This document shows positions 35,745-41,448 of a stretch of DNA of 41,956 bases, in pieces. Position numbers and translations under genes: made by a program. Positions within the stretch are counted from its first letter, which is position 1. Each line of letters opens with the position of its first letter. The DNA is from a virus: the IMG/VR virus record IMGVR_UViG_3300040801_003073, positions 1 through 41,956 of that record; one strand, 5' to 3'. A model generated the notes under the pieces. That model had not been told where the DNA came from. It worked only from the letters and a program-made list of their open reading frames with translations, and made no database searches.

Positions 35745-36074
35745 ATGGCAAGCTATAGATTAAATTTTGTAAAAAATATCTTAGAAAAAATAATACCACC
35801 TACAAAACCAATAGATAAAACAGGTGGTGTTTATGATACGTATTATGATTTAAAAGAAAGGGGCTTAATTTTAATTGTTTCTAATGGTGGAAATAAAACT
35901 TTTTATCTATATAAAAAAATTAAAAATAATCCTGAAAGAATAAAATTAGGAGGCTTTCCTGAATTATCTATATATGAAGCAAGAAAATTGGCTCAACAAA
36001 ATAAAAGATTAATTATTTCTGGAATAAATCCTAACCATGAAAAAAGAAAACTAAAAAGAATAACTAACGCTTAG
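35745..36074 (+). CDS. Stand-alone integrase arm-type DNA-binding domain
   Basis: The 109-aa protein matches the N-terminal arm-binding domain (DUF4102) of P4-type tyrosine integrases: GVYDTYYDLKERGLILIVSN, GGNKTFYLYKKI, KLGGFPELSIYEARKLAQQN, and GINPNHEKRK. The catalytic domain (R...HxxR...Y) is missing; after residue 109 the frame stops and the next genes run leftward. It may be a decayed integrase, or a small DNA-binding regulator or directionality factor. No intact integrase exists elsewhere in the window. It overlaps the next leftward gene by 11 nt at the 3' ends. Confidence 0.72.
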   Translation: MASYRLNFVKNILEKIIPPTKPIDKTGGVYDTYYDLKERGLILIVSNGGNKTFYLYKKIKNNPERIKLGGFPELSIYEARKLAQQNKRLIISGINPNHEKRKLKRITNA

Positions 36075-36780: not shown

Positions 36781-36809
36781 CTTTTTTTATTTTCTAATTT
36801 TGTTATTAT
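36781..36809 (+). promoter_or_regulatory. Promoter copy 1 (candidate small RNA)
   Basis: A T-rich segment ending in TATTAT (36804-36809) shares 26 identical bases with copy 2 (36781-36806 = 36992-37017). The -35 region is weak (T-run). Confidence 0.45.
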
Positions 36810-36812
36810 ACT

Positions 36813-36934
36813 ATTGCACAACATAAAAAGTGTTGAAGGTTTTTTCCTTAAAGGATCAGGTACCTTTTTTTCTACTGGTTGTGCATTTATCATTTCGAAA
36901 AAAGGGAGCGCTAATTTGCCATCCCTTTTTTTTT
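36813..36934 (+). ncRNA. Candidate small structured RNA with its own terminator
   Basis: About 120 nt lie between promoter copy 1 and an intrinsic terminator, without a reading frame. The first 71 nt are closed by a perfect 8-bp helix TGCACAAC (36815-36822) / GTTGTGCA (36878-36885). Inside, AAAAAG pairs with CTTTTT and AAGG-T6-CCTT forms a hairpin. The last 40 nt are the terminator. It could be a regulatory or antisense RNA; no known family was recognised. Low-complexity A and T runs weaken the inner helices as evidence. Confidence 0.4.
36898..36934 (+). terminator. Intrinsic terminator of the candidate small RNA
   Basis: A 10-bp stem AAAAAAGGGA / TCCCTTTTTT (36898-36907 with 36922-36931) with a 14-nt loop runs into nine T residues. 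The A/T symmetry means it can also work leftward. Confidence 0.75.
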
Positions 36935-36991
36935 ATAAAAAACCATCTAAATATTTAATTTCGTTCACAAAATTCATCCCTTTTTTTTCTT

Positions 36992-37020
36992 CTTTTTTTA
37001 TTTTCTAATTTTGTTATAAT
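36992..37020 (+). promoter_or_regulatory. Promoter copy 2 (alpha-CTD operon)
   Basis: The same 26-bp core as copy 1 ends here in a perfect TATAAT (37015-37020), 53 nt before the first ATG of the operon. Confidence 0.5.
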
Positions 37021-37026
37021 GTTTGC

Positions 37027-37068
37027 GGGGGCAATGCTAGCCTAGGTTGCCCCTGTTCAAATAAGGGG
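37027..37068 (+). promoter_or_regulatory. Leader with two mutually exclusive hairpins
   Basis: Hairpin A pairs GGGGCAA (37028-37034) with TTGCCCC (37047-37053) around a 12-nt loop. Hairpin B pairs CCCCT (37050-37054) with AGGGG (37064-37068), which is the Shine-Dalgarno of the next gene. Both need the same CCCC, so A would free and B would hide the RBS. Confidence 0.45.
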
Positions 37069-37073
37069 ATAAT

Positions 37074-37487
37074 ATGACAAATTATATTTATTGTAACGGC
37101 GTATTGATAAAAGCAGAAACTAAAGAAGAATTAGAAGAAAAGATACAAATAGAAAAAGAAATACAAAGATGCTGCTATAAAAGAATGCCAAAGTTATTTG
37201 AAGAATTTAAAGAAACTTTTAATGAATATTATGATGAAATAGAAAGTTATGCATTTGAAAAAATTATCCTTGCAGAAGATCAAATGCTACCAAAAAAATT
37301 TTTGTCAGAAATGCCCAATATAAATATTAAACAATTAAAACAAATGCTAAATCATGTCCGTGAATTATTTAGATTTTATTTAATATTAAGAGAAGAATAT
37401 ACTATGTCTAAATTCTTAATTTATAATTCTACATCTGTATGCACAATTAAAAGAATTAGAAAAAGAATTCAAAATATGAAAGGATAA
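37074..37487 (+). CDS. Hypothetical 137-aa protein, first of the alpha-CTD operon
   Basis: The protein has a short beta start (TNYIYCNGVLIKAETKEELE) and then long helices (LFEEFKETFNEYYDEIESYAFEKI...IKQLKQMLNHVRELFRFYLI), ending with a basic tail (TIKRIRKRIQNMKG). The middle helix resembles that of the 108-aa leftward protein nearby. No known domain. The next gene starts 1 nt after its stop, so the two are co-expressed. Confidence 0.65.
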   Translation: MTNYIYCNGVLIKAETKEELEEKIQIEKEIQRCCYKRMPKLFEEFKETFNEYYDEIESYAFEKIILAEDQMLPKKFLSEMPNINIKQLKQMLNHVRELFRFYLILREEYTMSKFLIYNSTSVCTIKRIRKRIQNMKG

Positions 37488-37488
37488 T

Positions 37489-38247
37489 ATGGATTTACAA
37501 CAAGCTTTAGATAAAATATTATTTTTAAAAAATAAAATTGCAGAACAAGAAACTATCATTACTAATTTAAAAAATAAATATAATACACTTACCGTTAAAT
37601 TAAATAATGCTAATACAAATTATAAAGATTTATCAAATAGGTTTGATGAACAAAAATATGAGCTTGAAAGAATACATTATAATAATCAATTGGATTTAAA
37701 AGAATATAAGTCTAAAATAAGTGATTTAAAAATTGAAATTGAAAGCAAATCACCTGATTATATAAGAAAAAATATTGAATATGAATTTAGAAATGAGGTT
37801 AATAATTTAAAACAACGATTAGTAAATTATGAATTATTATTTGAATCAATGAATGGCGAAAATAATTTAGATTTATTAATTATGGATTTAAAAGAATTAA
37901 CAGAAAAATATAAAAATAAAAATATAGGAAAAATTTTTAATTGGAAAAATAACAGTGTTTTAGCATTGCCTTTGGATGATTTAGATATTACTATCCGCAC
38001 ATCAAATTGTTTGAAAAATGAAGGTATAAAATATATAGGCGATTTAATTCAATATAGCGAAAAAGAATTATTGCGTATACCCAACTTTGGCAGAAAATCA
38101 TTAAATGAATTAAAGACTATAGTAAGAAATTTACATTTAAATTTTGGGGCAACTATTTATAATTGGCCTCCTGAAAATATAGAAGAATTATCTATACAAG
38201 TTTTAGATAAATACAATGAAATTATTCATAGGATATCATATGCATGA
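37489..38247 (+). CDS. Coiled-coil protein fused to an RNA polymerase alpha C-terminal domain
   Basis: In this 252-aa protein residues ~1-120 are a long coiled coil. Residues ~159-233 are an unmistakable RNAP alpha-CTD: PLDDLDITIRTSNCLKNEGI, KYIGDLIQYSEKELLRIPNF, GRKSLNELKTIV, ...NWPPENI. By alignment from memory with E. coli alpha, R170, N173, C174, K176, G201, K203, S204 and E207 correspond to R265, N268, C269, K271, G296, K298, S299 and E302. These residues bind UP-element DNA and activators. The alpha N-terminal (assembly) domain is absent. It may bind UP elements, compete with host alpha or bridge regulators; that is inference. It overlaps the next gene by 8 nt. Confidence 0.88.
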   Translation: MDLQQALDKILFLKNKIAEQETIITNLKNKYNTLTVKLNNANTNYKDLSNRFDEQKYELERIHYNNQLDLKEYKSKISDLKIEIESKSPDYIRKNIEYEFRNEVNNLKQRLVNYELLFESMNGENNLDLLIMDLKELTEKYKNKNIGKIFNWKNNSVLALPLDDLDITIRTSNCLKNEGIKYIGDLIQYSEKELLRIPNFGRKSLNELKTIVRNLHLNFGATIYNWPPENIEELSIQVLDKYNEIIHRISYA

Positions 38248-38941
38248 CTACAAAGAACTTTTTACTAATCTTAAAATCAAATATGACAATTTAGTGACAA
38301 AACATAATAAAGCATTGGAAGAGCATAAAAAACAATTAGATAAAATTGAAGCTCTTAATAAAGATATCAAGCTACAACGTAATGCCGTCGAATCCGAGTT
38401 AATGCATTATGTAAAACTTTATAATGAAGCCGAAAATAAATATTTAAAAGAAAAAGAATTAAATGATATTTGTTTTCAAGTAGAAAAAGATGTAGAGATT
38501 ATAGAGAAAGCAATTGAAGGTCAATATTTCAATATGCCAGAACTTTTAAAAGAATTAGATGGCTTAGAAGCAAAATTTAAAGATATATCAGAATCTTTTA
38601 CTTGTTATTTATTCGATTGTTTTATTAAAGCAGAATTAGACTTAAAAGAATTTCTTGATATAATAAATAAACAACCTATAGCATTTTGCGATTGGGAAGA
38701 CACTGAAGATAAAGAATTGGATCAACTTACTATAGAATTATTTGAAATATTAGAAAAATTAGAAAATAAACACGAGAAAGTTGATAATATAGAATTACAA
38801 GAACAATATGAAAAAAGAAAAAATATTAGAGAGCTAAAAGGATATATTGAACAAATAAATCAATTAATAAATATAATTCGACTAAAATTAACTGATGAAA
38901 TAATTGATTTTAAAAAATATAAGAGTAAACAATGGCAGTAA
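38240..38941 (+). CDS. Long coiled-coil protein downstream of the alpha-CTD gene
   Basis: The 233-aa protein is nearly all helical with heptad-like Leu/Ile spacing (YNLVTKHNKALEEHKKQLDK-like runs, ...LEKLENKHEKVDNIELQEQY, ...INQLINIIRLKLTDEI). A central part reads LKELDGLEAKFKDISESFTC. No domain recognised. It is translationally coupled (8-nt overlap) to the alpha-CTD protein, whose N terminus is also a coiled coil, so the two may form a complex. ATG 38240 has an AGGA RBS. Confidence 0.7.
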   Translation: MHDYKELFTNLKIKYDNLVTKHNKALEEHKKQLDKIEALNKDIKLQRNAVESELMHYVKLYNEAENKYLKEKELNDICFQVEKDVEIIEKAIEGQYFNMPELLKELDGLEAKFKDISESFTCYLFDCFIKAELDLKEFLDIINKQPIAFCDWEDTEDKELDQLTIELFEILEKLENKHEKVDNIELQEQYEKRKNIRELKGYIEQINQLINIIRLKLTDEIIDFKKYKSKQWQ

Positions 38942-40494: not shown

Positions 40495-40519
40495 CAAAAA
40501 TAAAAATATAACAAAAAGG

Positions 40520-40547
40520 TTAACAAATAGTTAATAATGTGTATAAT
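40520..40547 (+). promoter_or_regulatory. Promoter of the serine recombinase gene
   Basis: TTAACA, a 16-bp spacer and a perfect TATAAT lie 44 nt upstream of the ATG. A six-G run (40566-40571) and a normal AGGAG (40577-40581 region) follow; the AGGAG is at the better distance for initiation. Confidence 0.6.
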
Positions 40548-40591
40548 AATTCTATGATTATAAATGGGGGGCTATTTAGGAGATTAGTTAA

Positions 40592-41200
40592 ATGGCTGTT
40601 ATTGGATATGCCCGCATCTCTACCCCATATCAAAGTCTAGAATTACAAATACAATCTTTAAATAAACATGGTTGCGAAAAGATTTATAGCGAAACTGTTA
40701 GCGGCGCTAAAACCTTAAGACCTCAATTCCAAGCCTGCCTAGATTATTTACGTGCTGGCGATACCATAGTGGTCTGGAAGCTAGATAGGTTAGCTCGTAC
40801 ATTAAAAGAACTTTTACATCTCATAAAATATTTTGAAGATCATGAAATACATTTTGTATCTTTAACTGAAAATATCGACACTAAAACCGCAATAGGCAAA
40901 TTTGCATTCCATATGTGTGCATCTATGATCGAATTCGAACGTGATGTTATTCGTGAGCGTGTTACCGCTGGCCTTAAAGCAAGTCGTAAACGTGGGCGTA
41001 AAGGTGGACGCAAATATAAGTTCGATAAAAATAAAAGAGAACGTATATATGATTTATATGAAGTAAAACAAATGCCAGCTTCTGAAGTAGGCGAATTATT
41101 TGGTATAAAGAGACACCTCGTGTATAAATATGTGCGTGAACTTAAAACAGAGAAAAAAAACCTTGAATTGAGTTTAGAAAAATTAGAAACTGGTAGTTAG
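40592..41200 (+). CDS. Serine recombinase, resolvase/invertase family
   Basis: The 202-aa protein has the whole catalytic domain: Y6-A-R8-I-S10 with S10 as nucleophile, the WKLDRLAR block (D65, R66, R69), LTENIDTKTAIGKF and the E-helix MIEFERDVIRERVTAGLKA. A C-terminal helix-turn-helix follows (MPASEVGELFGIKRHLVYKY). The size matches Hin/Gin invertases and Tn3 resolvases rather than large serine integrases. It may invert a segment, resolve dimers or control tail-fibre choice. No inverted fibre cassette is evident here. It has its own promoter. Confidence 0.93.
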   Translation: MAVIGYARISTPYQSLELQIQSLNKHGCEKIYSETVSGAKTLRPQFQACLDYLRAGDTIVVWKLDRLARTLKELLHLIKYFEDHEIHFVSLTENIDTKTAIGKFAFHMCASMIEFERDVIRERVTAGLKASRKRGRKGGRKYKFDKNKRERIYDLYEVKQMPASEVGELFGIKRHLVYKYVRELKTEKKNLELSLEKLETGS

Positions 41201-41205
41201 TGCTT

Positions 41206-41448
41206 ATGAATAATAAAAAAGACATGGTTGAAATAATAAAAGTTTCTAAAATATCTATTCCTGTTCAAAATAATAATTTAGGTTCTGAAATCCTAAAAAC
41301 TATACTTTATAAAAAAAATAATCAATATTGCTGTTCTCAAGGCATCGGTGAAGATGAGTGGGTTATCAATAATGGTACTATGATTAATGTACAAGATGCA
41401 TTTCAAGTTTATTTTGATTTTAATGAAATAGAGCAACAACTTTTATGA
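41206..41448 (+). CDS. Hypothetical 80-aa protein after the recombinase
   Basis: A mixed alpha/beta protein (IIKVSKISIPVQNNNLGSEI, ...QGIGEDEWVINNGTMINVQD, AFQVYFDFNEIEQQLL) with no recognised family. It starts at ATG 41206, 5 nt past the recombinase stop (a GTG at 41200 would also work) and ends 7 nt before the transporter. It is probably co-transcribed with the recombinase. Confidence 0.55.
   Translation: MNNKKDMVEIIKVSKISIPVQNNNLGSEILKTILYKKNNQYCCSQGIGEDEWVINNGTMINVQDAFQVYFDFNEIEQQLL

Follow-up and report, generated by a model that had tools for sequence, protein, structure and literature searches.

A phage accessory gene encodes an RNA polymerase alpha-CTD on a predicted coiled coil

An accessory gene of a phage encodes a genuine C-terminal domain of the RNA polymerase alpha subunit (alpha-CTD), in a protein of 252 amino acids (AA) without the alpha N-terminal domain (alpha-NTD). 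The gene lies in the window, i.e. the whole stretch of 41,956 nucleotides that was analysed, which is the IMG/VR virus record IMGVR_UViG_3300040801_003073. We give a probability of about one half to the reading that the protein acts as a coiled-coil alpha-CTD dimer on AT-rich promoter DNA and shifts the promoter use of the host RNA polymerase, with competition as the net effect.

Domain, fold and determinants

The gene, an entry of the open reading frame list with an ATG start (Table 1), matches PF03118 over residues 154-212 (E-value 1.8e-21, 76 bits, cutoff 23.8). This is the sole family above its cutoff within the 252 AA and the one match to PF03118 in the window. A preliminary description made from the letters alone had read a full alpha-CTD at 37963-38187 (residues 159-233) and had set a match to this family beforehand as a test, which the protein passed. 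The coordinates were correct, except that the domain begins slightly earlier, at about residue 154. The NCBIfam RpoA model aligns residues 147-239 with model positions 243-335 of 338, spanning the end of the linker, the CTD and almost the full C-terminal tail, while the equivalog cutoff for RpoA is missed (106.4 bits vs 302). The top sequence among solved structures is the Caulobacter RpoA CTD (E-value 2.3e-25).

The AlphaFold2 model of the protein has a mean pLDDT of 77.8, with blocks of 91-98 in the CTD (residues 161-220). Using Foldseek, the closest structure to the modelled CTD was PDB 9zum, a Caulobacter alpha-CTD with AT-rich DNA bound, at 0.7 A over 73 residues with 53% identity and a probability of 1.00. 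The expected alpha-CTD fold was thus found in the predicted structure, as a compact helical fold with a helix-hairpin-helix DNA-binding face. The phage protein shares with this alphaproteobacterial RpoA the domain and tail, the 265 determinant and the motif WPPENIEEL. It differs from RpoA in that it has no alpha-NTD, sits on a coiled coil and has about 45% of its residues changed. The family profile search of the 252 AA detected neither the alpha N-terminal assembly domain (PF01000/PF01193) nor a helix-turn-helix (HTH) or sigma domain. Without the alpha-NTD, the usual route of assembly into the polymerase is closed to the phage protein.

Table 1. Positions of the gene, its parts and its neighbourhood in the window.
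Feature	Position	Strand	Basis or remark
Whole gene, coiled coil and alpha-CTD, 252 AA	37489..38247	+	Open reading frame; PF03118; AlphaFold2
Helical stalk (predicted), residues 3-143	37495..37917	+	DSSP of the model; heptad score vs shuffles
Alpha-CTD and C-terminal tail, residues 154-239	37948..38205	+	Pfam; NCBIfam; pLDDT; fit to 9zum
265 (DNA-contacting) determinant, R170 to E207	37996..38109	+	Alignment
NWPPENI tail motif, residues 225-231	38161..38181	+	Part of the WPPENIEEL signature
Upstream operon gene, 137 AA	37074..37487	+	86% identical in the relative L049; adjoins the downstream gene there
Downstream coiled-coil gene	38240..38941	+	Follows the 137-AA gene directly in L049
Operon promoter, predicted (TATAAT)	37001..37021	+	T-tracts upstream; also in L049:1854

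The place of the alpha-NTD is taken by a helical stalk, in agreement with the preliminary description. DSSP of the AlphaFold2 model assigned residues 3-143 as helical. A single unbroken heptad register runs through residues 3-62, with L-A-I-L-I-Q-I-L-Y-L-L-A-Y-L-F-Q-L-I at the a and d positions. None of 500 shuffles reached the mean heptad score obtained for residues 1-88 or for residues 1-143, and the score of residues 89-143 by themselves was not significant (500 shuffles). A predicted coiled coil over the first half of the stalk is therefore well supported, and the predicted heptads and helix suggest that the stalk dimerises. We do not claim that the stalk arose by duplication of the adjacent coiled-coil gene. 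The alignment of the N-terminus encoded by this gene with the coil scored 82, the mean of the shuffles being 53, and 3 of 200 shuffles scored as high, a weak signal that coiled-coil composition could explain.

Which residues form which determinant is established for the E. coli domain, whose numbering equals the residue number of the window protein plus 95. In the alignment, R170, N173, C174 and K176 correspond to E. coli R265, N268, C269 and K271, and N199, G201, K203, S204 and E207 to N294, G296, K298, S299 and E302. All are retained, so that every counterpart listed in the preliminary description, from R265 to E302, is present, together with the closing NWPPENI. The whole 265 determinant is intact despite a domain identity to RpoA of only about 55%. 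On the side facing sigma region 4, the acidic residues D258, D259 and D261 (E. coli numbering) of the 261 determinant are kept, which ancestry alone could explain. The 287 determinant is partly kept: S285, E286, E288 and L290 fit, while position 287 is a K and positions 317-318 differ.

No alpha-CTD family was obtained for the protein in the PHROGs search, and a search of viral contigs with the whole protein returned no relative. By the latter search, the exact combination of this coil with a CTD is so far unique to this record. A role in defence was checked as well, and the sole PADLOC match was to the alpha-CTD-like stretch of PglW (E-value 0.00086), which is no evidence of BREX.

Origin of the domain

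Among the sampled RpoA proteins, tails of the WPPENI(E/D) type and LKN(D/E) with PNFGRKSLNE occur only in alphaproteobacterial sequences, and the window protein follows this pattern closely. In a tree of 84 domains it groups with 34 alphaproteobacterial sequences (support 96/87). The best identity of its domain within the alphaproteobacterial set is 55%. The tree and the WPPENIEEL tail indicate an alphaproteobacterial rpoA as the donor, which is claimed to the level of class rather than order due to the very long branch of the window protein (4.9). Judged by its sequence, the domain is thus captured from an alphaproteobacterial RpoA, which supports the capture considered in the preliminary description. 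Either the capture would be old, or the copy would be changing fast. Going by the domain, the phage host is likely alphaproteobacterial as well. The prophage search returned no host genome with a close prophage, only a contig of a deltaproteobacterial MAG, which is a distant match (41% capsid), and Kaistia (27%).

Genome context

The window encodes a terminase, a portal protein, a Mu-F-like protein, a capsid protease, a cement protein, a major capsid protein and baseplate genes of a contractile tail, in addition to RecT and a YqaJ exonuclease. The genome has a GC content of 32%. With a G+C of 21% and a GC3 of 12%, the alpha-CTD gene resembles its neighbours (23-24% and 14-15%) and is thus adapted to its surroundings.

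The accessory nature of the gene is seen in a comparison with the relative IMGVR_UViG_3300022701_000186 (L049; 90% capsid identity). Positions 36980-37490 of the window correspond to L049 1833-2343 at 93%, and the similarity picks up again from window position 38239 at L049 2347. The alpha-CTD gene is precisely absent from this place, where its two neighbours are joined, and the breakpoints sit in AGGATA-type sequence before each start codon; since the L049 contig does not reach the length of the window, a copy in its missing part is possible. Presence and absence between such close relatives identify the gene as an accessory cassette in one apparent operon; with two genomes compared, gain and loss of the gene look alike. 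The relative phages found by their capsids had no match to PF03118, the corresponding slot being covered in L049 and not in every record. Of the searches with flanking genes, one returned only the relative L049 and another nothing.

The downstream coiled-coil gene shares 64% identity with L049:2348-3136 over its first approximately 80 residues and diverges beyond, and therefore looks modular. A further gene in L049 (290-751) has a motif at its start like that of the downstream coiled-coil gene.

Viral alpha-CTD proteins beyond this phage

The preliminary description had implied that a phage alpha-CTD homolog is a rarity, which did not hold. Non-RpoA proteins with an alpha-CTD are common in viral contigs, and databases already carry names for them in several phages. 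When viral contigs were scanned with the CTD alignment as seed, 224 alpha-CTD-encoding stretches were obtained, from which 80 loci were kept. All 80 encode non-RpoA proteins that lack the alpha-NTD (64 distinct proteins in 50 clusters), and PF03118 was matched by each of the 50 cluster representatives. Contamination with bacterial rpoA was rejected as an explanation since none of the 80 loci encodes an alpha-NTD, PF01000 is absent in the 12 viral records tested for it, and genes for a terminase, an exonuclease, a DNA polymerase and a helicase are among the neighbours. Some matches in the annotated phage collection were plain bacterial RpoA from mislabelled or unverified records and were not counted.

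The scaffolds of these proteins vary. Across 51 proteins, including that of the window, sigma-70 region 4 occurs in six, Mor in two and HTH_17 in three; other HTH domains, coiled coils and short helical parts are found as well. The unusual build that the preliminary description saw in the window protein is shared by at least two further viral proteins, L125 (265 AA) and L127 (281 AA), with the same layout of a long heptad-patterned helix leading to an alpha-CTD, although the sequence of their coils is unrelated to that of the window protein. Over 60 distinct viral domains, R265 is conserved in 100%, S299 and E302 in 95% each and N268 in 81%, all at positions that were not part of the search seed, whereas variation is seen at 266, 267 and 272-274. 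The conservation of N294, G296 and K298 was forced by the search seed and is not evidence. Since residues of the DNA face are kept and the nearby surface varies, this face appears to be under selection.

Several proteins in the viral structure library are labelled as "RNA polymerase, alpha subunit, C-terminal". These uncultured-phage proteins and the protein A0A2P1JY10 of Rhodococcus phage Finch are likewise viral and below the length of RpoA. Most proteins with this label have 110-140 AA, match structurally over the CTD only and have no assigned function. Among isolated phages, Bacillus phage vB_BmeM-Goe8 carries an alpha-CTD gene among small genes in each of the two terminal repeat copies. 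Its products gp005 and gp073, annotated as "RNA polymerase subunit alpha", have 211 AA with the alpha-CTD at the end like the window protein, but differ in the N-terminal part, in the terminal-repeat location and in belonging to a Herelleviridae phage. The kind of protein is therefore already known to annotators; what is absent from the open-access literature is a functional description, as no study of the function of a phage-encoded alpha-CTD protein was found there. The viral group is widespread, its members differ in architecture, and its function has apparently not been studied.

Our confidence falls slightly short of even for the broader view that phages have repeatedly taken the alpha-CTD onto new scaffolds, such as coiled coils, sigma region 4, Mor and membrane anchors. 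These proteins would form an undescribed class of regulators that rewire promoter choice from outside the enzyme, with the window protein as a dimeric member derived from alphaproteobacterial RpoA.

Individual proteins of the group show further arrangements. An alpha-CTD is joined to sigma-70 region 4, or to an HTH resembling it, in L124, L131, L143, L149, L145, L166, L103 and L106, some of which carry a MerR-like HTH in front. The L127 protein (L127:2002-2844) has, judged by eye, an apparent N-terminal membrane segment followed by the coiled coil and the C-terminal alpha-CTD, and could possibly be a membrane-anchored alpha-CTD. The Goe8 gene for 211 AA lies at L167:1959-2591 (NC_048797.1). 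In Ruegeria phage vB_RpoS-V16 (L043:2926-3792, MH015258.1), the CTD opens a 288-AA protein that is named pyrophosphatase in RefSeq, a name that applies to its C-terminal part. On a 16.6-kb Yoonia plasmid (L046:1748-2917, NZ_CP150953.1), an rpoA-like frame is complete, comprising both alpha domains and an added C-terminal extension; this frame is missing from the distributed gene table. Weak matches of phage alpha-CTDs to positions 330-387 of phrog_1660 (PmgS-like head morphogenesis; E-values 0.00095 and 0.0062) hint that PmgS relatives end in an alpha-CTD-like part.

Possible function

Members that carry sigma region 4 or Mor assign the viral alpha-CTD group to transcription initiation, and the proteins of the group probably steer host transcription. 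For the window protein, we infer DNA binding, an effect on transcription and the sign of this effect. An alpha-CTD from alphaproteobacterial RpoA would have been joined to a long coiled coil as a phage accessory gene. The coiled coil would pair two copies into a free-standing dimer, unattached to the polymerase, that mimics the alpha-CTD pair carried by the enzyme. The 265 determinant of each alpha-CTD would grip the minor groove of AT-rich, UP-element-like DNA, and the acidic 261 face may contact sigma region 4. Occupied AT-rich sites would then alter the promoter choice of the host RNA polymerase during infection. We favour a negative sign, in which the protein would compete at strong host promoters with the alpha-CTD of the polymerase itself, by analogy with other phages that remove or modify the host alpha-CTD. 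The LUZ19 protein Rac triggers a cleavage that removes it, and Alt and ModA of T4 ADP-ribosylate the alpha subunit (PMC7552054). These proteins are aimed at the alpha subunit and at alpha-CTD-dependent initiation, as proposed for the window protein; they bring about cutting or modification of the host subunit, whereas the window protein would supply an additional copy of the domain. Help at phage promoters comes close behind as the alternative sign. Against the proposed mechanism, the stalk lacks a domain for sequence-specific DNA binding. Promoter specificity would therefore fall to a weak AT-preferring alpha-CTD alone, and such a preference may be nearly unspecific in a genome with 32% GC.

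Help could take the form of co-activation: bound to T-tracts that lie upstream of phage -35 boxes, the dimer would contact sigma region 4 and assist in bringing the host RNA polymerase to the phage. The kept D258, D259 and D261 and the T-tracts ahead of the operon promoter and its duplicate (36790-36810, two mismatches) are in line with this, and those relatives in other phages that carry sigma region 4 or Mor would be self-contained activators. However, L049 has the same promoter and T-tracts without the gene, which is thus dispensable for the phage group and for that promoter. In addition, the promoter motif has only two good copies within the window, and a free alpha-CTD untethered to the polymerase would bring only a small gain in recruitment. 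Co-activation is considered rather less likely than competition.

More doubtful is that the protein bridges AT-rich DNA as an architectural binder that compacts or protects phage DNA or counters xenogeneic silencers, with no direct role at the polymerase. A probably dimeric stalk bearing two minor-groove binders in an AT-rich genome would suit such a role, but the nameable partner domains in the viral group are mostly domains of transcription initiation, and the neighbouring genes give no pointer to DNA organisation. A decoy that titrates host activators or phage-hostile factors binding the alpha-CTD, with no need for DNA, is very improbable: the surface is broadly alpha-CTD-like and the 287 determinant is kept in part, but the K at 287 and the differing positions 317-318 do not fit, and conservation in the viral set peaks on the DNA face.

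If competition by a coiled-coil alpha-CTD dimer is the true mechanism, a free copy of the polymerase's promoter-sensing domain would be a tool of phage takeover, adding a further route of attack on alpha-CTD function to its cleavage or modification. The viral fusions would be ready parts for studying how the alpha-CTD acts together with sigma region 4 and activators at promoters once separated from the enzyme. The window protein itself is of moderate interest, and the greater value lies in the breadth and diversity of the viral group.

Further observations in the window

Right behind the operon promoter, the leader (37022-37057, + strand) contains a possible GGGGGCAA...TTGCCCC stem, which L049 keeps. 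The second copy of the promoter motif (TTTTCTAATTTTGTTATTATA) opens a candidate small RNA gene at 36790-36935 (+ strand) with a long hairpin. This region has a predicted folding energy of -35.3 kcal/mol (z -3.7). It also contains a GGGA...TCCC stem and a run of T residues, which together resemble an intrinsic terminator; an Rfam search of the region gave no match. A 109-AA protein at 35745-36074 (+ strand) consists of an integrase-type Arm-DNA-binding domain (PF13356), the catalytic domain being absent. The L049 contig (L049:4681-6777) passes from the end of the window (40513-41400) into its start (1-515), and since it bridges both ends, the window probably represents an almost complete genome with circular permutation.
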